From an uncultured Lachnoclostridium sp. (GTDB taxonomy: Bacteria > Bacillota > Clostridia > Lachnospirales > Lachnospiraceae), in NCBI GenBank assembly GCA_944376715.1, contig CALWDO010000012.1, forward strand, positions 1-62,745: 62,745 nucleotides of DNA, given 5' to 3'. Every line of letters starts with the position of its first letter. Within the stretch, counting starts at the first letter, position 1. The notes under the pieces were generated by a model. The model did not search any database. It was not told the DNA's origin and was given only the letters and a program-made list of their open reading frames with translations. The position numbers and the translations under genes were made by a program. Of this stretch, positions 49,672 through 62,745 are shown in pieces.

Positions 49672-50751
49672 ATGAAGAAAAGACAGATGAATTTTGAACT
49701 GCTGAGAATTCTCTGCATGTATATGATTGTGGTGGGACATTGTCTGTTCCACGGCAGGGTGACGGCAAAACTGGGATATGGAACCATGAATTATCTGGCT
49801 TCTTATCTGATTCAGTCTTTTTCGGTGGTGCATGTGAATTGTTTCGTCATGATCGCCGGGTATTTTTCCATCGACCGGGGATTTCGGGCTGAGAAGATGG
49901 TCCGGCTCTGGAAACAGGTGGCGTTTTACTCGGTTCTGATTTTCCTTCTGTACGCTGTGTTTGCGCCTGTGACCGGAAGTGATCTGGTGCATGCAGTATT
50001 CCCCATATCCTCCAGGACGTACTGGTTCGCGTCGGTTTATGTTGGCATGTCGCTTCTGATGCCGTTTGCCGGCATGCTGGCTTTTCGGCTGTCCAGGCGG
50101 CAGTATCAGTATCTGCTGGTGCTTCTGGCGGTTTTCTTCAGCGTGAATCACATGATTTTTCGGGAAAACACGTATGGAACTTATGCGGGAAGGGAACTGG
50201 GCTGGTTTCTTTTCCTGGGGCTTCTGGCCGGATATATAAAGATTCATACAAAACCGGACAGGCGATATTTTCGGTATGGTCTGGCAGGCTATGTGCTGGG
50301 TTCCCTGGCAGTCCTGGCCAGCGTTTACCTGTCGGTAGAGACCGGACAGGAGGATATCGGATATTTTCTGAACTATAATTCGCCTCTGGCGCTCTTTGCC
50401 ACCGCAAGCCTCTTTCTTTGCGTGAAGAATATGCCGTGGAAAGAGACCGGACTGGACAGATGGATTGGCAGAATAGCCGGAGCTGCTTTTGGCGTCTACC
50501 TGATCCATGACAATTATCTGCTCCGATACCATGTGTGGGATTTCTTCAGGTCCAGCAAAGTAGCCCTTACCCATGCGGCGGTGCCTTATGCGGTGCTGGC
50601 AGCTGTTGTTGTATATGTTGTGTGTACTTGCCTGGAACTTTTGCGGCAGAAGCTGTTCGCACTGGCAGGACCGGTTTATTCCAGAACCGGCCTGTACCGG
50701 CTGGAACAGCGGCTGTGCAACGCGTGGGATGGGATCTTTCAAAAAGAATAG
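49672..50751 (+). CDS. Acyltransferase 3 family membrane protein
   Basis: This 359-residue protein has about ten membrane helices and the acyltransferase 3 start (NFELLRILCMYMIVVGHCLF), including the family's N-terminal R and H residues. Members acetylate surface polysaccharides or peptidoglycan with acyl groups. It follows the large membrane protein by 14 bases, and both may modify the same polymer. ATG 49672 has a GGAG eight bases before; ATG 49660 is an alternative. Confidence 0.85.
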   Translation: MKKRQMNFELLRILCMYMIVVGHCLFHGRVTAKLGYGTMNYLASYLIQSFSVVHVNCFVMIAGYFSIDRGFRAEKMVRLWKQVAFYSVLIFLLYAVFAPVTGSDLVHAVFPISSRTYWFASVYVGMSLLMPFAGMLAFRLSRRQYQYLLVLLAVFFSVNHMIFRENTYGTYAGRELGWFLFLGLLAGYIKIHTKPDRRYFRYGLAGYVLGSLAVLASVYLSVETGQEDIGYFLNYNSPLALFATASLFLCVKNMPWKETGLDRWIGRIAGAAFGVYLIHDNYLLRYHVWDFFRSSKVALTHAAVPYAVLAAVVVYVVCTCLELLRQKLFALAGPVYSRTGLYRLEQRLCNAWDGIFQKE

Positions 50752-50764
50752 GCGAAGACAAAAT

Positions 50765-50791
50765 CAGGGCTGCGGCGGTGCCGCAGCCCTG
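50765..50791 (-). terminator. Terminator of the ktr operon
   Basis: CAGGGCTGCGGC and GCCGCAGCCCTG form a perfect 12-bp stem with a three-base loop. On the minus strand it is followed by ATTTTGTCTT. It may also terminate the convergent acyltransferase transcript. Confidence 0.7.
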
Positions 50792-50804
50792 TGCTGTACA
50801 GAAC

Positions 50805-51506
50805 TTAGATGTTTTTTCGGTTATGGTCCGCTTTCACTGCCCATTCGGAGAGTTTGATGACTCCGTCACGGCTTCCGGAAACGATCAGGACATCTCCTTC
50901 GCGGAATACATAATCCGGTTTTACGCTTTCTATGACGTCATTATTGTTCTCAATGGCAATGATATTCAATCCGAAGCGAGGCCTCAGATTGATCTCCAGT
51001 ACGGTATGGCCGATAAAGGAATCGGGAACCATCAGCTTGGAGATATTGACCTTCTGGCTCAGCTGTATGAAATCCAGTACTCCGGCCGTTTCCAGACGCT
51101 GTGCCAGGCGGATCCCCATATCCCGTTCCGGATAAACGACTTCCGCGCCCAGCCGGGAGAGAATCTCTCCGTGTTCCGGACTGGTGGCTTTTGCTACAAC
51201 CAGCGGAATTCCCAGACTGACCAGATTCAGCGTGGTCAGGATAGAAGATTCCATATGCTCTCCGATACATACGACTGCCACATCGCAGTTCTGGATGCCG
51301 GTCTCCATCAGTGTTTTTTTGTCCAGCGAGTGAACGACGATAGCATGCTCGGTTACCTCGCGCATTTCCCTTACTTTTTCTTCATCACGGTCCAGAGCCA
51401 GGATCTCTGCGTCTGTCTTGGCAAGCTCGCATGCCAGAGCAGTGCCGAACCGGCCAAGCCCTACGATTCCATAAGATGTTTTTTCTGCTTTCTGTTTTCC
51501 AAACAT
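50805..51506 (-). CDS. ktrA: Potassium uptake regulator KtrA/TrkA
   Basis: The 233-residue cytosolic protein has an RCK-N domain (IVGLGRFGTALACELAKTDA, NAD/ATP-binding) and an RCK-C domain. It gates the KtrB channel according to nucleotide binding. ATG 51506 has AGGAGG six bases upstream on the minus strand; the open frame to 51530 has no site. It lies 27 bases after ktrB. Confidence 0.93.
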   Translation of the reverse strand: MFGKQKAEKTSYGIVGLGRFGTALACELAKTDAEILALDRDEEKVREMREVTEHAIVVHSLDKKTLMETGIQNCDVAVVCIGEHMESSILTTLNLVSLGIPLVVAKATSPEHGEILSRLGAEVVYPERDMGIRLAQRLETAGVLDFIQLSQKVNISKLMVPDSFIGHTVLEINLRPRFGLNIIAIENNNDVIESVKPDYVFREGDVLIVSGSRDGVIKLSEWAVKADHNRKNI

Positions 51507-51533
51507 GGTTTTCCTCCTATATGATTGCAAGAT

Positions 51534-52838
51534 TTAGCCGACAGCGATATTTCCGGTGGGATAGCTGACCCGTTCTCCGGAAGTAAAATGCCAGAGGCTG
51601 GCAATGGTCAGCGGCCCCAGACGTCCGATATACATGATGCAGATGGACAGCAGCTTGCTTCCGTCAGTAAGCGAAGGAGTGATACCTGTGGAAAGGCCCA
51701 CAGTGCCGAACGCGCTGGTAACCTCAAAAAGCGCGTCGCGAAGATTCAGATACGGATCCATCACAAGCATCAGGTAAGTGCCGGTGATCACGACGGTCAA
51801 TGCCAACAGGGTGATCACAGCCGCTTTCCGGAAGGTTCCTTCCGGTAATGCATAGTGGAAGGCTTTTTCCGAATGGTTGGTAGCAGCACGTTTGATCCCC
51901 TGGATCAGGGCGAAGAACGTACTGGTTTTAATACCGCCGCCGGTGGATCCCGGGGAGGCCCCGATAAACATCAAAACGATCAGGACCATCAGTCCCGGAG
52001 TCGTAAAATCTTTTAACGGATACGTCGAAAACCCGGCGGTTCTGGCGGATACGCTGTTAAAGAAGGCGCCCATCCAGGAAATGTCTTCTGTCAGCTTCAG
52101 AAGCAAGGTTCCCGACAGAAGCAGCCCGGCAGTCACTGTAAGCACGACTTTTGTGTGCATGGAAAATTTTTTCCAGCGGAATCTGGCCGACCAGACTTCC
52201 CGGATGACCAGAAAGCCGATACCGCCGAAGATTATCAATCCGCAGGTGACCAGATTCAAAAGTACGTCTTTTTGATAGGGGATCAGATTTTTCCCTCCGC
52301 CTAAAATGTCAAAGCCGGAGTTGTTAAATGCCGCCACAGAGTGGAACAGGCTGACTCCGATCGCTTTTACCAGAGGAAAATCCTGCCGGAAGACAATGAA
52401 ACTCAGCGCCGCGCCGGTAAGTTCAAAGATCACTGTGGTGACAAAGATACTTTTGATAAAACGGACCAGCCCTTTGCCGGAATCCAGATTCATAGCTTCC
52501 CGGATCAGATCCCGCCCTTTTAAGTTTACCCTTCGCCCGATGGCGATCATGATGCCGGCGCCGATGGCTGTGACTCCGAGACCTCCGATCTGGATCAGGG
52601 AGCCCAGGAAAAACTGTCCCAGGGGCGTGAAGGTGTCTCCTGCATCGATGGCGATCAGTCCGGTTACACAGACGGCGCTGGTAGATGTGTAGAGCGCGTC
52701 GATATAACGGACGGTAACGCCGTCCTGGATGCTGCAGGGCAGCATCAGCAGAATGGAGCCGACCAGGATAGTCAGTGCAAAGCCCAGAGCGATGATGCGG
52801 CCGGGCGGCTGCCGTTTGATGAATTTTGCAGGTGTCAT
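51534..52838 (-). CDS. ktrB: Potassium transporter KtrB/TrkH
   Basis: The 434-residue membrane protein has the four-repeat (M1-P-M2) structure of Trk/Ktr channels, with pore-loop segments such as STSAVCVTGL, FNNSGFDILGG, SARTAGFSTYPL and SAFGTVGLSTGITP, each containing the filter glycine. It forms a Na+-dependent K+ uptake system with KtrA. Confidence 0.94.
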   Translation of the reverse strand: MTPAKFIKRQPPGRIIALGFALTILVGSILLMLPCSIQDGVTVRYIDALYTSTSAVCVTGLIAIDAGDTFTPLGQFFLGSLIQIGGLGVTAIGAGIMIAIGRRVNLKGRDLIREAMNLDSGKGLVRFIKSIFVTTVIFELTGAALSFIVFRQDFPLVKAIGVSLFHSVAAFNNSGFDILGGGKNLIPYQKDVLLNLVTCGLIIFGGIGFLVIREVWSARFRWKKFSMHTKVVLTVTAGLLLSGTLLLKLTEDISWMGAFFNSVSARTAGFSTYPLKDFTTPGLMVLIVLMFIGASPGSTGGGIKTSTFFALIQGIKRAATNHSEKAFHYALPEGTFRKAAVITLLALTVVITGTYLMLVMDPYLNLRDALFEVTSAFGTVGLSTGITPSLTDGSKLLSICIMYIGRLGPLTIASLWHFTSGERVSYPTGNIAVG

Positions 52839-52867
52839 AGTTTCTTACCTCAACATTGTAAATAGTA

Positions 52868-52900
52868 TATAATAAGCACTTCGTGCCCATTATACCATGT
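52868..52900. repeat. REP-like palindromic repeat, copy 1
   Basis: This 33-base hairpin (TATAATAAGCACTTCGTGCC followed by CATTATACCATGT) is repeated at 52978-53010 with one base different. The core is GCAC-TTC-GTGC within AT-rich arms. It lies between ktrB and aroA. Confidence 0.75.
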
Positions 52901-52965
52901 CTGCTCTGCAGACATGATGCCTCCGGCGGATGCGCCCGGCTTTCTGCGGCGAGCGCAGAAACCGG
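52896..52965. repeat. Two GC-rich hairpins between the REP-like copies
   Basis: CATGTCTGC/GCAGACATG (52896-52916) and CCGG-TTTCTGCG/CGCAGAAA-CCGG (52936-52965, one bulged C) lie between the two repeat copies. Together with them the whole 143-base stretch is nearly all self-complementary, similar in style to the element at 21397. Confidence 0.65.
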
Positions 52966-52977
52966 CATGCGCGATGG

Positions 52978-53010
52978 TATAATAAGCACTTCGTGCCTAT
53001 TATACCATGT
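52978..53010. repeat. REP-like palindromic repeat, copy 2
   Basis: This copy is 32/33 identical to copy 1 and extends further into GGTATAATA/TATTATACC arms (52976-53006). It stands in direct orientation to copy 1, although the unit is almost its own complement. Confidence 0.75.
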
Positions 53011-53047
53011 ATCCTGTAAAGAAGGCGCTAAGCTTTGCCGCATTTGA

Positions 53048-54328
53048 TTAATTTGCGTTCAGGGACCTGAGATCTTCATAAAATCCTGGATAGCTGATGT
53101 TGACGCAGTCCGCGCCCAGTATGCGTGTTTCTCCGTCTGCCGCAAGCGCAGTGACGGCAAAAGTCATGGCGATGCGGTGATCCAGATGGCTGTCAATGAC
53201 GGCGCCGTGAAGAGGCCTGCCGCCTCTGATGACCATTCCGTCGTCAGTGGCCGTGATGTCCGCTCCCATGGCGCGCAGATTCTCTGCCATTACGTCAATT
53301 CGGTTGGATTCCTTGACTTTCAGTTCCTGGGCGTCACGGATCACGGTAGTACCGTCTGCGAAACATGCCAGAGCGGCGACTACCGGAAGCTCGTCGATCA
53401 GTGTAGGGATCACGGCTCCGCCGACTTCTGTTCCGTGTAAGGAACTGCTTTTGACTAATATGTCGGCATAGGGTTCTCCGTTATCCCAATGCTCGTTCAG
53501 AAGAGTCAGATCGGCTCCCATTTCCCGGCATACGCGCAGAAGGCCGTCTCTGGTGGGATTGATCCCCACATGTTGGATGAGAATCTCAGAGCCGGGAACG
53601 ATCAGACCGGCGGCAATAAAATATGCGGCGGAAGAAATATCGCCGGGGACACGGATCTCCTGCGCATGCAGATCCGGGCCCGGCTGAATGGTGACAGTGG
53701 TACCCTCTGTTTTCAGGTCAGCGCCAAAATGACGCAGCATAATCTCCGAATGGTTCCGTGAAAGACTGGGTTCCGTGACGCTGACCGGGCTGTCCGCATA
53801 GAGGCCGGCCAGAAGCAGGCAGGATTTTACCTGCGCGGAAGCTACAGGGGATGTATAGTGGATACCGTGCAGGGGCGAGCCGGAAATCTTGAGAGGCGCG
53901 CAACCATTGTCTTTTAGGCTTTCTATGTGTGCGCCCATCTGGGACAGCGGATCTATGATCCGTTTCATGGGACGTGTCCTGATGGAATCGTCTCCGTCCA
54001 GCTGTGAGTCAAAGGATTGACCGGAAAGAATACCGCAGATCAGGCGGGTGGTGGTGCCGCTGTTTCCCACGTCCAGGACGGAAGACGGCGCGGAGAGTCC
54101 GTGCAGGCCTTTTCCGTGTACCAGGATTTCCCGCGGAGTTTCTTCGATTTCAATGCCCATTTTCCGGAAGCAGTCAATAGTAGACAGACAGTCGGCTCCA
54201 CGCAGAAAGTTGGTGACGCGGGTGGTTCCTTTTGCCAGCGCGCCAAACATAATACTGCGGTGGGAGATGCTTTTATCACCCGGTACGGTGACAGTTCCTT
54301 TTAAAGCTTTGGTTCTGGTAAATATCAT
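53048..54328 (-). CDS. aroA: 3-phosphoshikimate 1-carboxyvinyltransferase
   Basis: AroA (EPSP synthase) makes 5-enolpyruvylshikimate 3-phosphate in the shikimate pathway. The 426-residue protein has GDKSISHRSIMFGALAKG, the LDVGNSGTTTRLICG and DDSIRTRPMKRIIDPL motifs and EIPVVAALA-type signatures near the end (DELPVVAALACFADG). It lies ten bases after tyrA on the same strand. Confidence 0.96.
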   Translation of the reverse strand: MIFTRTKALKGTVTVPGDKSISHRSIMFGALAKGTTRVTNFLRGADCLSTIDCFRKMGIEIEETPREILVHGKGLHGLSAPSSVLDVGNSGTTTRLICGILSGQSFDSQLDGDDSIRTRPMKRIIDPLSQMGAHIESLKDNGCAPLKISGSPLHGIHYTSPVASAQVKSCLLLAGLYADSPVSVTEPSLSRNHSEIMLRHFGADLKTEGTTVTIQPGPDLHAQEIRVPGDISSAAYFIAAGLIVPGSEILIQHVGINPTRDGLLRVCREMGADLTLLNEHWDNGEPYADILVKSSSLHGTEVGGAVIPTLIDELPVVAALACFADGTTVIRDAQELKVKESNRIDVMAENLRAMGADITATDDGMVIRGGRPLHGAVIDSHLDHRIAMTFAVTALAADGETRILGADCVNISYPGFYEDLRSLNAN

Positions 54329-54337
54329 GGTGTCTCC

Positions 54338-55426
54338 TTAACGTTCATATATAATATAGCGGTATTTACGAAGAATGTCGGCGGCCTTTCGCATAGCCGG
54401 TTCATCATAGAATTCAATGCGAAGGACCGCATCCACAAATTCTCTGCTGTGGACGATACCGATATTCTTCAGGTTGATCTGATTGCTGGCAAGAATCGTG
54501 GCGAGAGCGGCGATGCCGCCGGCTTCGTCTACCATCTCGCAGTAAATTTCGTAAGCGGGTTCTATCGGACCGTGCCCCTGAGTGGGAAGGCTGTTCCGGT
54601 AGTCCCTGGAACTTTCAAAAAGATCATAGATGGCGTCAGACTGCGCTTTGTCCAGTTCCTGACGGATATTGGTCAGAGAGTCAATATAATCCTGTAAAAT
54701 GGCAGAAATGTTTTGGCGGTTAGTCATACAGATCTGTTCCCACATCTCGGGAGAAGAGGAGGCAATCCGGGTGATATCGCGAAATCCTCCGGCGGCGATC
54801 ATCTTCATGATCCCGTCTTTGGTATCTGAATCCCGCACCAGATTCACCAGGGCAGAGGCAATGATATGGGGCAGATGGCTGACGCCGGCGGTCACATAGT
54901 CATGCGTCTGATAATCCAGAATCAGGGGCAGCGCCTTCAGGCTGGCGATAAAATCACGGAATGCCAGCACGGTTGCCTCCGGAATCTCCCTGGTGGGGGT
55001 AATCACATAGTACGCATTCTCGATTAAAATCCTTTTCGAATTGGCATATCCTGTCTTCTCGGAACCTGCCATAGGATGACCTCCGATAAAACAGGATTCC
55101 ATATCCAGTTCCTTTACTTTTGCATGGATATCGCTTTTGGTGCTTCCCACGTCCGAGACGATGCAGCCGGGAGAAAGAAATGGCCGGAGACTGGCCAGAT
55201 ACGCGGCGTTGCTGGATACGGGAGCGCAAAGAAATATATAGGTACAGTCCGAAAAATCCGGTCCGACCCGGTCTGCGATCCGGTCGACCACGCCGTCTTT
55301 TACTGCTTGTTCCACGGAGGCCCGGGTGCGGGAATGGACGACGATCTCAGTGTCCGGATAAAAATGGCGGACAGCCTTGGCGATGGAGCCGCCGATCAGG
55401 CCCAGTCCAATAAATCCAATTTTCAT
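54338..55426 (-). CDS. tyrA: Prephenate dehydrogenase with ACT domain
   Basis: TyrA converts prephenate to 4-hydroxyphenylpyruvate for tyrosine synthesis. The 362-residue protein has the Rossmann motif GLGLIGGSIAKAV, the catalytic region GGHPMAGSEKTGYANS and a C-terminal ACT domain (from about 290, AGGIAALATILASNQINLKNIGI) that probably senses tyrosine. It is first in the tyrA-aroA operon. Confidence 0.95.
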   Translation of the reverse strand: MKIGFIGLGLIGGSIAKAVRHFYPDTEIVVHSRTRASVEQAVKDGVVDRIADRVGPDFSDCTYIFLCAPVSSNAAYLASLRPFLSPGCIVSDVGSTKSDIHAKVKELDMESCFIGGHPMAGSEKTGYANSKRILIENAYYVITPTREIPEATVLAFRDFIASLKALPLILDYQTHDYVTAGVSHLPHIIASALVNLVRDSDTKDGIMKMIAAGGFRDITRIASSSPEMWEQICMTNRQNISAILQDYIDSLTNIRQELDKAQSDAIYDLFESSRDYRNSLPTQGHGPIEPAYEIYCEMVDEAGGIAALATILASNQINLKNIGIVHSREFVDAVLRIEFYDEPAMRKAADILRKYRYIIYER

Positions 55427-55460
55427 ATCAGGTTCTCCTATTCCTTTTGTAAATGCCGTA

Positions 55461-55469
55461 AGTATATCA
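55461..55469 (-). promoter_or_regulatory. Extended -10 of the tyrA promoter
   Basis: The minus strand reads TGATATACT, an extended -10 box. A weak -35 (TTTCAT) lies about 16 bases upstream. The ATG of tyrA follows with an AGGAG site. Confidence 0.5.
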
Positions 55470-55604
55470 TATTTAAAAAAAAATGAAAAGTGCGGACAAA
55501 ATACGCCGAACGAGACATATGTCCTTTTTTGTTGTCAAAAGTGACAGTAAAATATAAAAAAAGAGAACAAAACAGAAAACTTTTCACGAAAATACGGCGT
55601 GGTG

Positions 55605-55613
55605 TGTTATAAT
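55605..55613 (+). promoter_or_regulatory. Extended -10 of the Crp/Fnr gene promoter
   Basis: TGTTATAAT contains a perfect TATAAT (55608-55613) with the extended TG. The -35 region (TTCACG) is weak, 19 bases away, suggesting activator dependence. The gap between tyrA and this gene holds only these divergent promoters. Confidence 0.55.
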
Positions 55614-55654
55614 CAAATTGTAGAATAATAAAAAACGATATGTTGAGGTAACAC

Positions 55655-56371
55655 ATGAATCTGCAGGTATTGATGGCGCAGCTTAGTTTTATGCCCGCGG
55701 AAAGCCGGGAATATCTAAGACGGATGTTTGACCATGCATCGGAAAGTTTTCTGGAGCATCTTTCCTTGAAAAAGATCGAGAAGGGGACATTGTTCATCCA
55801 TGAGAATGCCCCGGTGGGAAAAGTTTTTTTTCTGTTGAACGGCCGTGTGCGCGGCATGGAGCACCGCGTGCTGGGGGTGAGATACCAGTATACACAGTTT
55901 GAACCGGTAAAAGTCTTTGGAGCTATGGAAATCCTGCTGGGATTTGACCGATATATGGCTACGCTGGAAACAGGCACGGACTGCTGGTTTTTGATCACCG
56001 GAAGAGAGGACTACCGCCGTTGGATCAGTCAGGACATAGACGCGCTGCTGATGGAAACCAGAAGTATGGGGCGTTATCTTCTGGAACAGGGACGCAAAGA
56101 AAGGCTGCTTTTATTTTTGGAAGGGCGGGACAGGCTGTTTTTCCTTTTTTGCCAGGAATATCAGACCACCGGTTCCGAGGGAAAATGTACAATCCGCTGG
56201 ACGAGACAGGAATTGTCAGATTGTTCCGGGCTTTCTACCAGAACTGTGAACCGTCTGGTAAAGTCCATGCAGGAGGACGGATATATCGAATATCATCGAG
56301 GACGGATCTGGATCACCGGGGATCAATATGAGCAGATGCAAGAATACTTGGATGGTATTACATTTGAATAG
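55655..56371 (+). CDS. Crp/Fnr-family transcriptional regulator
   Basis: The 238-residue protein has a cyclic-nucleotide-binding-like beta barrel (VFFLLNGRVRGMEHRVLG, FGAMEILLG) and a Crp-type helix-turn-helix (TRQELSDCSGLSTRTVNRLVK). The four N-terminal cysteines of Fnr are absent and the phosphate-binding cassette is not conserved, so the ligand is unknown. It lies 15 bases upstream of add and may regulate the nucleoside genes. Confidence 0.88.
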   Translation: MNLQVLMAQLSFMPAESREYLRRMFDHASESFLEHLSLKKIEKGTLFIHENAPVGKVFFLLNGRVRGMEHRVLGVRYQYTQFEPVKVFGAMEILLGFDRYMATLETGTDCWFLITGREDYRRWISQDIDALLMETRSMGRYLLEQGRKERLLLFLEGRDRLFFLFCQEYQTTGSEGKCTIRWTRQELSDCSGLSTRTVNRLVKSMQEDGYIEYHRGRIWITGDQYEQMQEYLDGITFE

Positions 56372-56386
56372 AAAGAGGTGAGTACC

Positions 56387-57358
56387 TTGGGAGACATGAT
56401 ACGGCATATGCCGAAGATCGACCTCCATTGTCATCTGGACGGTTCGCTGACGCTGGAAAGCGTCCGGAAGATTACGGGCAGGGACGTAGCGCCGGAGGAA
56501 CTGCAGGCGGAGGACAGATGCCGGGACCTGGCGGAGTACCTGAAAAAATTTGATATCCCCATCGCGTGCCTGAAGACGGGAGAGGCGCTGAAAATCGTGG
56601 CGCGGGAGTTCCTGCTGGATGTGGCGAAGGAAAATATCTGTTATATCGAGGCCAGATTTGCTCCGCTGCACTCGGCGGGAGAAGGCTTAAACAGCAGACA
56701 GGCGGTGGAGGCTGTATTAGATGGGCTTGCGGAAGCGGAAAAGATCTGCCATGTACGGTACGGAGTTATTGTCTGCGCTATGCGTCATCACAGTCAGGAG
56801 GACAGCCTGGCCATGTTTAAGGAATGTCGGGAATATCTGGGCGAAGGCGTCTGCGGCGCAGACCTGGCCGGAGACGAGGCTTCCTGGCCTATGCAGAATT
56901 ACCGGAATTTATTCCGGGAAGTGAAGAAGCTGGATTATTCTTTTACCATCCATGCCGGAGAATGCGGAAATGCGGAAAATATACGGGAAGCAGCAGAGTG
57001 CGGCGCTGCCAGGATCGGACACGGCATCGCCATGAGCGGACGGCCGGATATACAGAGACTATGCATAGAGCATGGAATTGGCATTGAAATGTGCCCGATC
57101 AGTAATTTGCAGACGCGTGCGGCAAAGTCGCCGGATCATTATCCGCTCAGGGAATTTCTGGACGCGGGTTTGAAGGTGACTTTGAATACCGATAATCGTA
57201 CTGTGAGCCGGACCAGCATTACCCGGGAAATGGAATTCGCCCGGAACCATTGCGGCGTGACGGATGAAGAACTGCTGCAGCTGGAACGGAATGCGGTAGA
57301 TCTGGCTTTCGCGGATGACGCAGTAAAGCATGAGCTCTGGAAACTATGGAATCATTAA
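56387..57358 (+). CDS. add: Adenosine deaminase
   Basis: The 323-residue enzyme deaminates adenosine/deoxyadenosine to inosine. Zinc and catalytic residues are present: HCH in PKIDLHCHLDGS, HAGECGN (general base region), IGHGIAMSG and NTDNRTVS. I choose TTG 56387 because AGAGGTG lies six bases upstream; GTG 56378 would sit inside that site. The gene begins the nucleoside-salvage run. Confidence 0.93.
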   Translation: MGDMIRHMPKIDLHCHLDGSLTLESVRKITGRDVAPEELQAEDRCRDLAEYLKKFDIPIACLKTGEALKIVAREFLLDVAKENICYIEARFAPLHSAGEGLNSRQAVEAVLDGLAEAEKICHVRYGVIVCAMRHHSQEDSLAMFKECREYLGEGVCGADLAGDEASWPMQNYRNLFREVKKLDYSFTIHAGECGNAENIREAAECGAARIGHGIAMSGRPDIQRLCIEHGIGIEMCPISNLQTRAAKSPDHYPLREFLDAGLKVTLNTDNRTVSRTSITREMEFARNHCGVTDEELLQLERNAVDLAFADDAVKHELWKLWNH

Positions 57359-57376
57359 GAGGAATAGGAGAAACGT

Positions 57377-58213
57377 ATGGAAAACGCAGTCTATGAGAAA
57401 TTAATGAGATGCTATAAGACAGTAAAGGAGAAAATAGATTTTCAGCCAAAGGTGGCGCTGGTTCTGGGTTCGGGCCTGGGAGACTATGCAGACAGGATGG
57501 AGATTGAAGCAGAACTGGATTATCATGAGATCGATGGATTTCCGGTTTCCACAATTCCAGGACACAAAGGAAGATTCGTGTTTGGACACGTGGGAGAAGT
57601 TCCGGTGGTAGTTATGCAGGGGCGTGTTCATTACTACGAAGGTTATTCGATCCAGGATGTGGTGCTGCCGATCCGTCTGATGCGTTTGATGGGGGCGGAA
57701 GTACTTTTCCTCACCAATGCGGCCGGAGGCGTCAATTTTGATTTCCATGCCGGGGATTTGATGATGATCACGGATCAGATCAGCTCCTTCGTTCCATCTC
57801 CGCTGATCGGGCCGAATATGGAAGAACTGGGAGCCCGTTTTCCGGATATGAGTGACGTGTATGACAGAGAATTACAGGAAGTGATTCGCCGCACGGCAAA
57901 AGAGCTGGATATTCCTCTTCAGGAAGGCGTATACCTTCAGCTTACCGGTCCGGCTTATGAATCTCCGGCAGAGGTCCGGATGTGCCGGATCCTGGGCGCC
58001 GACGCGGTGGGGATGAGTACCGCATGTGAAGCAGTGGCCGCGAATCATATGAAGATGAAGATCTGCGGAATTTCCTGTATTTCTAATTTGGCATGCGGCA
58101 TGACGGATCAGCCGTTGGATCATAAAGAAGTTCAGGAGGCGGCCGACCGGGTGGCGCCGCTGTTCCGGAAACTGGTGACGAAAAGCATTCAGGAAATTGG
58201 AAAACAGTTATAG
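57377..58213 (+). CDS. punA: Purine nucleoside phosphorylase
   Basis: This 278-residue trimeric-type PNP cleaves inosine and guanosine with phosphate. Motifs include [41 protein letters not shown] and [15 protein letters not shown]. It follows add directly, completing adenosine to hypoxanthine conversion. Confidence 0.95.
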
Positions 58214-58227
58214 GAGGGACGGAAACA

Positions 58228-58998
58228 ATGCATTATTCAGAAGACCCCAACAAACAATACCATATCCAGGTTGGAAAAGGAGAAGTAGGGCGTTATGTGA
58301 TATTGCCGGGCGATCCCAAACGCTGTGCAAAAATTGCCAAATATTTTGATGAACCCAGACTGGTGGCGGACAGCAGGGAGTTTGTTACCTACACCGGATA
58401 TCTGGACGGAGAGATGGTGAGCGTGACCTCTACCGGAATTGGAGGGCCGTCTGCATCCATTGCCATGGAAGAACTGGTAAAATGCGGAGCGGATACCTTT
58501 ATCCGGGTTGGCACCTGCGGAGGTATGCAGCTCAAGGTGGAGAGCGGCGATCTGGTGATTGCCAGCGGGGCGATCCGTATGGAAGGAACCAGCAGAGAGT
58601 ACGCGCCGATCGAGTTCCCGGCTGTGGCGGACGTGGGGATTGTAAACGCTCTGGCAGAGGCTGCCGACGCGCTGGGGAAAAGACATCATGTGGGAGTCGT
58701 GCAGTGCAAGGATTCTTTCTATGGGCAGCATGAACCGGAGATTATGCCGGTCAGCTATGAACTTCTGAATAAATGGGAGGCATGGAAGAGACTGGGATGT
58801 CTGGCCTCTGAGATGGAATCAGCAGCGTTATTCGTAGTGGCCAGCGCGCTCGGGGTGCGTGCCGGATCTGTTTTCCTGGTAGTGGCTAACCAGGAACGGG
58901 AAAAAGAAGGTCTTCCCAATCCGGTTGTCCATGACACGGATCTTGCAATCCGCACGGGAATAGAAGCAATTCGCAGGCTGATCCGGCGCGAAAATTAA
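58228..58998 (+). CDS. udp: Uridine phosphorylase
   Basis: This 256-residue NP-I family enzyme cleaves uridine to uracil and ribose 1-phosphate. It has [41 protein letters not shown] and [13 protein letters not shown]. The [12 protein letters not shown] segment is typical of uridine phosphorylases. It lies 14 bases after punA. Confidence 0.92.
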
Positions 58999-59009
58999 TA
59001 ATTATTCAG

Positions 59010-59032
59010 AGGCGTATTTAACGCCTGTTTTT
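59010..59032 (+). terminator. Terminator after udp
   Basis: AGGCGT (59010-59015) and ACGCCT (59021-59026) form a short stem followed by GTTTTT. Confidence 0.65.
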
Positions 59033-59075
59033 CCCGCTTTTTCCCGCCGTAATGAATGGTTGCGAAAATTGCCGC

Positions 59076-59104
59076 TTTTCATTTTGGCATAAGGATGGTA
59101 TGAT
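59076..59104 (+). promoter_or_regulatory. Probable promoter of the bmp-yjjI-yjjW run
   Basis: TTTTCA (59076-59081) and TATGAT (59099-59104) are 17 bases apart. The -35 box is weak. Confidence 0.45.
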
Positions 59105-59147
59105 AGAAATAAGGCCCAGGCCTAAAAAAAGAAAAGGAGAGAAACAT

Positions 59148-60251
59148 ATGAAAAAGAAAGTACTGGCAGTATTACTGTGCGCGGCTATGGTAATGTCCAT
59201 GACCGCCTGCGGTAACAGCAGCACCGAGGAGCCCGCAGAGACCACAGATACGACTGAGGCGGCGGACGACAGCACGGAGGCGGCAGACGAGAGCAGCGAT
59301 GCGGCTGCAGCTGGAGGAGATTTCAAGATCGGCCTCGTTACCGACGTAGGAGGAGTAAACGACGGTTCCTTCAACCAGTCTGCATGGGAAGGCCTGCAGA
59401 GAGCGGCAGAAGAGCTTGGCGTAGAAGCCAACTATCTGGAATCTTCCACTGACGCAGACTATACCCCGAATCTGGAAACCTTTATCGACGAAGAATATGA
59501 TCTGATCATCAGCGTAGGATATATGCTGGCAGACGCTACCAAGGCGGCGGCTGAAGCAAATCCGGATGTAAAATTTGCTATCATCGATGACGCGACCATC
59601 GAGCTGGACAATGTGACCTGCCTGATGTTTGAGCAGGAGCAGGGATCTTACCTGGTAGGCTATGTGGCTGGTATGATGACCGAGACGGACAATGTCGGCT
59701 TTGTCATCGGTATGTCCAATGAAAACATGAACCTGTTCGGATACGGTTACTGCGCGGGCGTTCTGGATGCAAATCCGGATGCAACGATTCAGCAGTTCAA
59801 CGTGAACTCTTTTGCAGATTCCGCCACCGGTAAATCCATGGCCAACACAGCTATCACCAACGGCGCGGATATCGTGTTCCATGCAGCGGGAGCATCTGGC
59901 CTTGGTGTGATCGAGGCGTGCCAGGAGGCTGGCGTATACGCGATCGGCGTTGACAGCGATCAGTCCAGCATCGCACCGGAGACAGTCATTACTTCTGCTA
60001 TGAAGAGAGTTGACAATGCAGTATATGATTCTGTAGAATCCCTGATCAATGGCACCCTGGAGGGCGGAGTGGTAACTTACGATCTGTCCATGGGCGGTGT
60101 AGATATTGCGCCGACGCAGGATCTGCTTCCGGAAGAAGTGATCTCCGCAGTAGAGGATGTAAAACAGCAGATCATCGACGGAGAGATTGTAGTTCCGAAC
60201 GATCAGGCAAGCTTTGAAGCTGCACACGGAGATGTGTACGAATTAGACTAA
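59148..60251 (+). CDS. BMP-family nucleoside-binding lipoprotein
   Basis: This 367-residue ABC substrate-binding protein has a lipoprotein signal (SMTAC, Cys21), an acidic Thr/Ala/Asp-rich linker, then the BMP/Med fold (GLVTDVGGVNDGSFNQSAWE, SVGYMLADATKAAAE, MKRVDNAVYDSVESLING). Family members such as PnrA bind purine and other nucleosides. The salvage genes upstream fit this. ATG 59148 has AAGGAGAG; the open frame from 59052 is not needed. No permease is in view. Confidence 0.93.
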   Translation: MKKKVLAVLLCAAMVMSMTACGNSSTEEPAETTDTTEAADDSTEAADESSDAAAAGGDFKIGLVTDVGGVNDGSFNQSAWEGLQRAAEELGVEANYLESSTDADYTPNLETFIDEEYDLIISVGYMLADATKAAAEANPDVKFAIIDDATIELDNVTCLMFEQEQGSYLVGYVAGMMTETDNVGFVIGMSNENMNLFGYGYCAGVLDANPDATIQQFNVNSFADSATGKSMANTAITNGADIVFHAAGASGLGVIEACQEAGVYAIGVDSDQSSIAPETVITSAMKRVDNAVYDSVESLINGTLEGGVVTYDLSMGGVDIAPTQDLLPEEVISAVEDVKQQIIDGEIVVPNDQASFEAAHGDVYELD

Positions 60252-60283
60252 TGAATGAATCGGGATGGAGGAGTGATTAAGTA

Positions 60284-61828
60284 ATGAGAGATATTTCCAT
60301 GGAAAGGGTAAACGCGACGCGTGAGCAGATCCTTGAGATTATCAAGAGCCCCACGCTGACACATGAGCAGAAGCTGACCAATCTGGCGAACCAGGCGGAT
60401 TCACTGATGGAGGTTCTGGATCTGCCGGAAGGACTCGACGAACTTCTGAATACGGATATTGAGACGAAGTGCATCTGTGATCTGTCGGAGGGACATGCTC
60501 CGGTGCGTCCGCGGTATATTGTCCCGGACTATGCGAAATTCATGAAGGAAGGCTGCAGCTTTCTGCAGCTTCCTCCTCCAACCGATTTGTTGGAAGCATT
60601 GAATGACCTGCTGATTTTTTATAAGCATGTGCCGAGCGTAACCAATTATCCGGTTTATGTGGGACAGCTGGACGAGCTTCTGGAGCCGTTCATGGACGGC
60701 GTGGATGATGAGCAGGCGAAAAAACTTCTTAAGATGTTTATGACTCATGTGGACCGTACAGTCCTGGATTCATTTTCCCATGCGGATATCGGTCCGAAGG
60801 CTACCAGGGCAGGGCGGCTTCTGCTGGAAGTAGAAGCAGAGCTGGAGAATGCGGTTCCGAATCTGACCCTGAAGTATGAAGAAGGAGTGACAGACGACGA
60901 CTTCGCCCTGGCGGCGGTGAACTGCGCTCTTCACAGTGCGAAACCCAGTTTCGCCAACCATGCCATGTTCAAAAAGGAACTGACGGAGAATTATGTGATC
61001 GCCAGCTGCTACAACGGTCTTCCGTTGGGCGGCGGTTCCTATACGCTCTGCCGTTTGATCCTGGGCAATATTGCAAAGAGAGCGAAAAATATTCAGGATT
61101 TCAAAGAGAATCAGCTTCCGTATGTGCTGGATATCATGGCGCGTTATATGGACGCCCGGATTAAATTCGAAGTAGAGGAGAGCGGATTCTTTGAGAACAA
61201 CTTCCTGGCTAAAGAAGGATTTATTCACAGAGACAGGTTCACCGCCATGTTCGGTATGGTAGGTATGGCAGAGTGCGTGAATATCCTGCTTGAGAAGGAA
61301 GGAAAAGAAGGTCGTTTCGGCCATGACAAAGCAGCCGACGATCTGGGTGTGGAGATCATGGAGATCATTAAAGATTTCAATGATCATCATGTGAACCCAT
61401 ACTGTGAGGTGACGGGAGGACATTTCCTGCTGCATGCGCAGGTAGGACTGGCGGACGATGTAAATGTGACGCCTGGTACCCGTATCCCCATTGGAGAGGA
61501 ACCGGAAGAGCTGGTCGATCAGCTTCTGGTGCTGAGCCGTTTCCACAAATATTTCCCGTCGGGAACCGGCGATATTTTCCCGATTGATATCACGGTACAT
61601 AAGAACCCGGAATTTGTGCTGGATATTGTGAAAGGCGCATTCCGGAAAGATCTGCGGTATCTTTCTTTCTACTCCAGCGACAGCGATGTAATCCGTGTGA
61701 CCGGATATCTGGTAAAACGTTCTGAGATGGAAAAACTGGATCAGGGCAAGGCTGTACTGCAGAATACGACCGGATTAGGACTGGGAGCGTCCAAGAACGG
61801 ACATATTCTGGAGAGAAAGGTTCGATAG
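60284..61828 (+). CDS. yjjI: YjjI-family glycyl radical enzyme
   Basis: This 514-residue protein is a YjjI (DUF3029) glycyl radical enzyme of unknown reaction. The C-terminal radical-site motif is VIRVTGYLVKRSEMEKL, with the glycine at residue 474, 40 residues before the end. The central part has SCYNGLPLGGGSYTLCR, where active-site cysteines may lie. The activase follows one base later. In Escherichia coli yjjI-yjjW adjoins deoCABD; here it follows nucleoside genes, suggesting a role in nucleoside or deoxyribose breakdown. Confidence 0.92.
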   Translation: MRDISMERVNATREQILEIIKSPTLTHEQKLTNLANQADSLMEVLDLPEGLDELLNTDIETKCICDLSEGHAPVRPRYIVPDYAKFMKEGCSFLQLPPPTDLLEALNDLLIFYKHVPSVTNYPVYVGQLDELLEPFMDGVDDEQAKKLLKMFMTHVDRTVLDSFSHADIGPKATRAGRLLLEVEAELENAVPNLTLKYEEGVTDDDFALAAVNCALHSAKPSFANHAMFKKELTENYVIASCYNGLPLGGGSYTLCRLILGNIAKRAKNIQDFKENQLPYVLDIMARYMDARIKFEVEESGFFENNFLAKEGFIHRDRFTAMFGMVGMAECVNILLEKEGKEGRFGHDKAADDLGVEIMEIIKDFNDHHVNPYCEVTGGHFLLHAQVGLADDVNVTPGTRIPIGEEPEELVDQLLVLSRFHKYFPSGTGDIFPIDITVHKNPEFVLDIVKGAFRKDLRYLSFYSSDSDVIRVTGYLVKRSEMEKLDQGKAVLQNTTGLGLGASKNGHILERKVR

Positions 61829-62677
61829 ATGGAGACAAAAGCAGTGGTAAACCGGATCATCCCATTCAGCAGTGTGGATGGTCCGGGCAACCGGACGGCG
61901 GTATTTCTTCAGGGATGCAATATTGACTGCAAGTACTGCCATAATCCGGAGACAAGACACATGTGCGTGGACTGCGGTGCCTGTGTGGAACAATGTCCTG
62001 TGGGCGCGCTGTCTATGGGAGAAAATGGGAAGGTAGAGTGGAAGGAAGATCTCTGTGTCCAGTGCGATACCTGTATCCATGTCTGTCTGCACGGAAGTTC
62101 ACCCAGAACGCATGTGATGACGGCGGGGGAGACCTACGAAAAAGTAAAGAAACAGATCCCTTTTATCAGGGGAATAACCGTATCCGGCGGCGAGTGTATG
62201 CTGCAGCCGCAGTTTTTGCTGGAGCTGTTTCGCCTGGCGAAAGAAGACGGACTGTCAACGATGATTGACAGCAACGGGATGGTTCCGTTCCAGGATTATC
62301 CGGAGCTTCTGGAGGCAACGGACGGAGTTATGCTGGATATCAAGGCGTTTGACCGGGAAGAGCACAAGAATGTGACGGGTGCTTACAATGATATCGTCCT
62401 GGCGAATGCAGAGTATCTGGCCCAAAAATCGAAACTGTTCGAAGTGAGAGCCGTAATTGTTCCCGATTTGTACGACACGGAAAAAAGCGTGCGTCAGATG
62501 GGGGCATTTCTGGCCCCTTTTTTAAAAATACACAAATTCAGGATCAAAGTGATCGCTTATCGGCCCATGGGAGTCAGGGAGATCTATTCCCATTACGAGG
62601 TACCGTCCAGGGATTATCTGGAGTATCTGGCCGGGATCCTGAGAGAACAGGGATTTGACGATATTATTATCATCTGA
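61829..62677 (+). CDS. yjjW: YjjW-family glycyl radical enzyme activase
   Basis: This 282-residue radical SAM enzyme would place the radical on YjjI. It has the SAM cluster motif CNIDCKYC (Cys30, 34, 37), two inserted ferredoxin-type clusters (CVDCGACVEQCPVGA, CVQCDTCIHVCLHGS) and the VSGGECMLQPQFLLEL segment. The start is directly adjacent to the yjjI stop, so they are co-translated. Confidence 0.94.
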   Translation: METKAVVNRIIPFSSVDGPGNRTAVFLQGCNIDCKYCHNPETRHMCVDCGACVEQCPVGALSMGENGKVEWKEDLCVQCDTCIHVCLHGSSPRTHVMTAGETYEKVKKQIPFIRGITVSGGECMLQPQFLLELFRLAKEDGLSTMIDSNGMVPFQDYPELLEATDGVMLDIKAFDREEHKNVTGAYNDIVLANAEYLAQKSKLFEVRAVIVPDLYDTEKSVRQMGAFLAPFLKIHKFRIKVIAYRPMGVREIYSHYEVPSRDYLEYLAGILREQGFDDIIII

Positions 62678-62694
62678 ACAAAGGAGGCAGGGAA

Positions 62695-62745
62695 GTGGGA
62701 AAAGAGAGCCATATGGATGAAAGCACGGTCGTGATCTCCATGAAG
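62695..62745 (+). CDS. Start of an unidentified gene cut by the window edge
   Basis: GTG 62695 follows AAGGAGG with seven bases spacing and opens a frame (GKESHMDESTVVISMK) running off the right edge. Seventeen codons are too few to identify it. By position it could be the ATPase of the nucleoside ABC transporter matching the BMP lipoprotein, but that is a guess from context. Confidence 0.4.
   Translation, partial: MGKESHMDESTVVISMK

Follow-up and report, generated by a model that had tools for sequence, protein, structure and literature searches.

A YjjI/YjjW glycyl radical pair within a nucleoside importer and catabolic gene run of a Lachnoclostridium, with a possible role in ribose deoxygenation

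Introduction

The closest described relatives of the system reported here are YjjI and YjjW of Escherichia coli, a glycyl radical enzyme and its radical SAM activase (TIGR04040 and TIGR04041; PF11230). We analysed 62,745 nucleotides from an uncultured Lachnoclostridium sp. (GenBank assembly GCA_944376715.1, contig CALWDO010000012.1), referred to below as the window, which is the entire contig C12 of a 2.9 Mb assembly of 79 contigs. It encodes a YjjI/YjjW pair that scores over both family cut-offs, with a YjjI 41% identical to that of E. coli. As in the window, the E. coli pair adjoins genes of nucleoside catabolism. That adjacency had been put forward in an earlier reading of the window made without database searches (the sequence-only reading), and we found it as described, although the E. 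coli pair is divergent from deoC-deoA-deoB-deoD whereas the window pair is co-directional with, and inside, an importer and catabolic gene run.

Three further systems invite comparison. The anaerobic class III ribonucleotide reductase (RNR), NrdD, provides the nearest structures, and its thiyl cysteine and glycine loop align with YjjI; however, the window protein has 514 residues and catabolic neighbours, the zinc-binding cysteine pairs found before the glycine loop in both NrdD rows compared are absent from both YjjI rows, and the activase partner is YjjW rather than NrdG, whose model scores only 41 bits (cut-off 126) where that of YjjW scores 372. The anhydroglucitol and anhydromannitol 6-phosphate lyases YbiW and PflD are likewise glycyl radical enzymes that act on sugar phosphates (PMC12441222), but the window YjjI is shorter and lacks a match to the pyruvate formate-lyase (PFL)-like family PF02901. 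Finally, BMP-type nucleoside ATP-binding cassette (ABC) importer operons share with this locus a lipoprotein, a double ATPase and two permeases, and differ in having no glycyl radical pair between lipoprotein and ATPase.

The YjjI family is already known. In the open-licence papers found to mention YjjI, neither a reaction nor a tie to nucleosides is given, and the pathway idea developed here was not found in the open-licence literature searched. We propose, with a probability of roughly 0.38, that YjjI uses RNR-like chemistry to deoxygenate ribose, most likely as ribose 5-phosphate, and thereby supplies the deoxyribose-phosphate aldolase DeoC.

Results

The pair lies within an importer and nucleoside-catabolic gene run

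The run reads on the plus strand from 55655 and comprises a Crp-type regulator, add, punA, udp, a Bmp-type lipoprotein gene, yjjI, yjjW and, at the contig end, 51 bases of one more gene. NCBIfam cut-offs assigned add, punA, udp, yjjI and yjjW to their families, and Pfam the regulator and lipoprotein:

60284..61828, plus strand: yjjI, glycyl radical enzyme of 514 amino acids (TIGR04040, 694.8 bits, cut-off 498.3; PF11230, 753 bits; PF13597 NRDD, 27.2 bits, cut-off 26.2)
61829..62677, plus strand: yjjW, radical SAM activase with a ferredoxin-type insert (TIGR04041, 372 bits, cut-off 250; Radical_SAM and Fer4 Pfam matches)
55655..56371, plus strand: Crp/Fnr-type regulator, first gene of the run (PF00027 and PF13545 over cut-off)
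56378..57358, plus strand: add, adenosine deaminase (TIGR01430, 274 bits, cut-off 216.6)
57377..58213, plus strand: punA, purine nucleoside phosphorylase (NF006054, 359 bits, cut-off 218)
58228..58998, plus strand: udp, uridine phosphorylase (TIGR01718, 331 bits, cut-off 280)
59148..60251, plus strand: Bmp/PnrA-type substrate-binding lipoprotein of an ABC importer (PF02608, 267 bits)
62669..62745, no strand: contig-end overlap of 77 bases with contig C60 (100% identity to C60:1-77)
62695..62745, plus strand: first 51 bases of an ABC importer ATPase, complete on C60 (L004:27-1571)

The gaps are 18 bases between add and punA, 14 between punA and udp, 149 between udp and the lipoprotein gene, 32 from there to yjjI, 0 between yjjI and yjjW, and 17 from yjjW to the next gene, so that the uninterrupted approach of nucleoside genes to yjjI-yjjW, with gaps of at most about 150 bases, is as the sequence-only reading gave it. 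Two starts deserve comment: the first start of add given by the open reading frame (ORF) tool is a GTG at 56378, whereas 56387, the start taken in the sequence-only reading, is a TTG within the ORF, and the lipoprotein start at 59148 was chosen by its signal peptide over the tool's first start at 59052. Relatives of the regulator were found at a number of other YjjI loci.

The same reading had guessed that the gene starting at 62695 was an ABC ATPase that would place the pair inside the transporter operon, and had pointed to the sequence beyond 62745 as the check. In a search of the genome itself, C60:1-77 was the sole other identical place for 62669-62745 among the matches listed, and C60 continues with the double ATPase, two permeases, a YczE-like membrane protein, deoC, cdd, deoB and leuS. 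The identical order stands on a single contig in Lachnoclostridium sp. An196 (L026), which has a 99% identical YjjI; the overlap is therefore not an assembly accident, and the guess proved right. All NCBIfam matches listed for the ATPase and both permeases fall below cut-off, and the importer would be specific for nucleosides judging from family and context. The YczE-like protein between permeases and deoC (L004:3578-4210; NF052291, 70 bits, cut-off 205) recurs at related loci.

Between udp and the lipoprotein gene there is a terminator-like stem (59010-59026) as well as a promoter-like site (59076-59104), so a single transcript for the run is not proven. Scans for such signals were no richer than shuffles, with 10 promoters against 7.9 (standard deviation 2.9) and 8 terminators against 6.4 (standard deviation 2.8), and no Rfam family was found in 50000-62745.

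The glycyl radical enzyme YjjI most resembles class III RNR in structure

Dereplication of YjjI at 80% identity gave 64 rows, including the window. Two predicted catalytic residues are invariant among them:

61007..61009, plus strand: codon of Cys242, predicted thiyl-radical cysteine of the Ser-Cys-Tyr-Asn motif (Cys in 64/64 rows; aligned with the NrdD GC motif)
61703..61705, plus strand: codon of Gly474, predicted glycyl radical site of the Arg-x-Thr-Gly-Tyr motif (Gly in 64/64 rows; aligned with the NrdD glycine loop)

The whole Ser-Cys-Tyr-Asn motif is likewise present in all 64 rows. Cys65 is a cysteine in 57 of them, and its equivalence to the second active-site cysteine of NrdD is only putative.

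A structure model of the window YjjI (pLDDT 87.6) has the same fold as solved NrdD, and NrdD entries are its closest structures, the best of them leading the top non-NrdD structure by about six Z units; PflD was the first non-NrdD match, tied with others. The YjjI and NrdD profiles aligned with an hhalign score of 296, compared with 15-25 for ten column shuffles. Searches of solved structures by sequence pointed to no function: the single YjjI sequence found no PDB chain at E ≤1, while the family profile gave six matches at E values up to 10, the best being NrdD (8p23, E 0.086). On the window protein Pfam reported only the YjjI-like and NRDD domains, without a separate regulatory or zinc domain. 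The NRDD score was below its cut-off for the E. coli YjjI (11.1 bits) and that of L083 (18.8 bits), and L154 and L139 gave no match. Since the YjjI profile matches NrdD and PFL-type enzymes each far better than those two match each other, YjjI may link the two branches of glycyl radical enzymes.

The chief rival to ribose reduction is a redox-neutral radical elimination, in which a single cysteine radical dehydrates ribose or deoxyribose phosphate, or opens its ring, to give a keto-deoxy sugar phosphate for an aldolase, comparable to YbiW/PflD acting on anhydrohexitol phosphates. Glycyl radical dehydratases typically carry a Cys-x-Glu motif, and PFL a Cys-Cys pair. At the dehydratase position YjjI has Cys-Tyr-Asn, and this together with the six-unit lead of NrdD in the structure comparison argues against elimination, which we regard as possible though rather unlikely. 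PFL-like carbon-carbon cleavage was set aside: the window YjjI has no Cys-Cys pair and no PF02901 match at E 10, and among five YjjI proteins only that of L139 matched this family, at 12.3 bits (cut-off 24.3).

YjjI presence tracks deoC but not deoB

A YjjI that makes deoxyribose 5-phosphate would require DeoC in the same genome. Across draft genomes, with kinship ignored and DeoC paralogues counted as deoC, this gene was over cut-off in 62 of 63 YjjI-bearing genomes (39/40 in one set, the miss being G320, and 23/23 in a second) as against 61 of 76 genomes without YjjI, a baseline confined to the phylum (Fisher one-sided p 0.0005). The control gene deoB, for which phosphopentomutases of other families would be missed, had a match in 52/63 and 64/76, respectively (p 0.82). 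Ten YjjI genomes with deoC lacked a deoB match and none had deoB alone, while YjjI-negative genomes split 8 to 11. Leaving out three spirochaete genomes changed little (deoC in 59/60, p 0.0007; split 7 to 0). Within the family deoC was present in 17/17 genomes with YjjI and 10/16 without, and an earlier YjjI-negative sample, picked by hand from the genomes listed, had it in 30/38. Two entries had been dropped from the YjjI-positive set, G260 with a partial YjjI match and G508, whose deoC place is that of G557 and which is thus the same genome; both have deoC.

Plasmid records were viewed separately. No deoC was found on the Haliovirga plasmid or the Vibrio plasmid record, the search covering those records only. 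A Chloroflexota plasmid carries two deoC genes, in sugar-catabolic runs, which we did not count as support.

Variant loci share a pentose rather than a base

PsuK and PsuG together yield uracil and ribose 5-phosphate. In a Treponema (L080) yjjW and a PfkB kinase gene overlap at the stop of the one and the start of the other, and the kinase gene in turn overlaps psuG (PF04227, 430 bits), giving the order yjjI-yjjW-psuK-psuG; the kinase was called pseudouridine kinase-like on a score below cut-off. Among the 121 YjjI loci laid out, psuG was near yjjI in seven (the Treponema locus, five of Clostridium and one of Bacillota), and all seven genomes have deoC. Their deoB status varies, with no match in G547, G555 and G562, only a below-cut-off match in G554, and a gene present in G548, G556 and G564.

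Elsewhere (L154) the genes after the pair encode an S-methylthioribose-1-phosphate isomerase, which scores over cut-off, then a class II aldolase, a sugar-binding regulator and a Bmp importer. Xanthine phosphoribosyltransferase is encoded 3' of yjjW in L157, genes resembling it are found in L155 and L160, and in L168 a 5'-deoxyadenosine-deaminase-like gene, scoring below cut-off, comes after yjjW. The sole thing common to these purine, pyrimidine, pseudouridine and other contexts appears to be the pentose. The sequence-only reading had proposed a substrate derived from ribose, deoxyribose or a nucleobase; the ribose-derived part gains weight from psuK-psuG in Treponema and Clostridium, from deoC co-occurrence and from the NrdD-like structure, while a nucleobase is disfavoured and was set aside.

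These loci also bear on two rival roles. YjjI could be a nucleoside or nucleotide reductase for salvage, converting imported ribonucleosides or nucleotides to deoxy forms for DNA or phosphorolysis, which would suit both the NrdD-like fold and the position of yjjI inside a nucleoside importer run. However, its neighbours, which include psuK-psuG and the isomerase with its aldolase, have no base-specific partner in common, and a protein of 514 residues without a separate regulatory or zinc domain is not what this role suggests; we consider it improbable. Alternatively, YjjI could act on another metabolite of these pathways, such as acetaldehyde from DeoC, 5-deoxyribose or a nucleobase. The deoC link also fits a step after DeoC, and the MtnA-type isomerase with its aldolase, the 5'-deoxyadenosine-deaminase-like gene and the phosphoribosyltransferase genes 3' of yjjW count in favour of this role. 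Yet in the ten genomes with deoC and no deoB match DeoC needs a source of deoxyribose 5-phosphate, and kinship with RNR favours the ribose ring, which leaves this role only a slim chance.

A second glycyl radical gene run was seen on the minus strand of the same genome (G000:C2:98000-117900; L270:5403-16771). It holds a DeoR-type regulator, a PFL2-3 subfamily enzyme, an activase, a PHP-type phosphatase-like protein, a ribose-type ABC importer, a PfkB kinase and a DeoC paralogue; the enzyme reaches none of the listed cut-offs for specific equivalogs. A PFL2-type enzyme in one run with a DeoC paralogue is perhaps the same logic in another guise.

The nucleoside neighbourhood is general but not universal

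Of 150 genomes of the family, 17 encode a YjjI over cut-off, as do 25 of 398 in the phylum; both counts include the source genome. The 121 loci, laid out with up to about 10-12 kb per side, include some genomes twice and were drawn in part from the best 80 of 582 relatives, mostly Lachnospiraceae and Clostridium, so that the survey is biased. With a first panel of importer genes, add, punA, udp, deoD, cdd, deoC, deoB and deoA, nucleoside context was present at 24 of the 63 other dereplicated loci (25/64 with the window) but at none of 40 control windows, each 15-20 kb long and set at round-number positions of 26 YjjI-bearing genomes (p 9e-7). A wider panel, to which psuG, MtnA-like and phosphoribosyltransferase genes were added post hoc, after the neighbours had been seen, raised this to 31/63. 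Outside loci of Lachnospiraceae type, a grouping by record title and family code, the first panel found 5/39 (E. coli, three loci of one family, and L154; p 0.026) and the wider panel 12/39. In a quick midpoint-rooted tree, both branches of the deepest split include loci with first-panel context, a trait that changes state at least 10 times. The neighbourhood link that the sequence-only reading had asked to see surveyed is therefore real and recurrent, but about half of the loci lack it.

Several loci do not fit a nucleoside-linked role. Even the wider panel leaves 32 of 63 loci without any of its genes in the surrounding 10 kb or so, among them those of Haliovirga, a Chloroflexota bacterium (where a ribokinase lies 8 kb away), Proteus, Vibrio and Aeromonas. 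In a Treponema metagenome-assembled genome (L083:6080-9971) genes for a short-chain dehydrogenase/reductase, an FMN oxidoreductase and an FAD-binding protein, none of them nucleoside-related, lead directly into yjjI (gaps 32, -1 and 29). In two Caloramator genomes (L094:12315-12986, L098:12312-12983) there is a one-base overlap between the end of yjjW and an isochorismatase-family gene, and the neighbour in L145 is an energy-coupling factor (ECF) transporter component.

Another rival is that YjjI has no mechanistic tie to nucleosides and is a mobile or stand-alone anaerobic enzyme, often found in nucleoside loci through shared regulation. Outside the Lachnospiraceae type, 27 of 39 dereplicated loci lack any panel gene, and in 30 of 53 a simple ORF picker connected no further gene of the same direction to the pair at a distance of up to 90 bases. 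However, nucleoside genes of different kinds turn up on either side of the tree's deepest split, and the deoC link holds without adjacency, so we think this explanation has little more than an outside chance.

Two further placements were recorded. The pair is on plasmids in Haliovirga (Fusobacteriota; NZ_AP027060.1, L135) and the Chloroflexota bacterium (CP069395.1, L139). In Proteus mirabilis (L137:6953-10506) yjjI adjoins smp and serB, genes beyond the deo region in E. coli, and deoC is elsewhere in the record.

Discussion

In the pathway that we propose, nucleosides would enter through the Bmp-type importer, deamination and phosphorolysis would release ribose 1-phosphate, and DeoB would convert it to ribose 5-phosphate. 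YjjW would install the radical on Gly474 of YjjI, from which a thiyl radical at Cys242 could abstract a hydrogen of the ribose ring (at C3, as in RNR), so that the 2-hydroxyl leaves; reduction would then give 2-deoxyribose 5-phosphate, which DeoC would split into glyceraldehyde 3-phosphate and acetaldehyde. Formate is the obvious candidate reductant, by analogy with class III RNR (PMC4390871), and YbiW and PflD offer a precedent for glycyl radical enzymes that make a deoxysugar phosphate (PMC12441222). The import, base-release and DeoC steps follow from established functions of their families; for YjjI itself we infer substrate and reaction from fold, residues and co-occurrence. Such a step would let anaerobes route ribose through the deoxyribose path without transketolase and transaldolase.

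Gene context, deoC-specific co-occurrence and NrdD-like structure give a narrow and testable guess at the substrate. More broadly, and tentatively, YjjI may be a catabolic, RNR-like radical ribose-phosphate reductase that makes deoxyribose for breakdown by DeoC rather than for DNA, in an anaerobic ribose- and RNA-scavenging route of gut bacteria and E. coli. If this is true, ribose from RNA and nucleosides would be fermentable via deoxyribose phosphate, and chemistry of the RNR type would serve catabolism.
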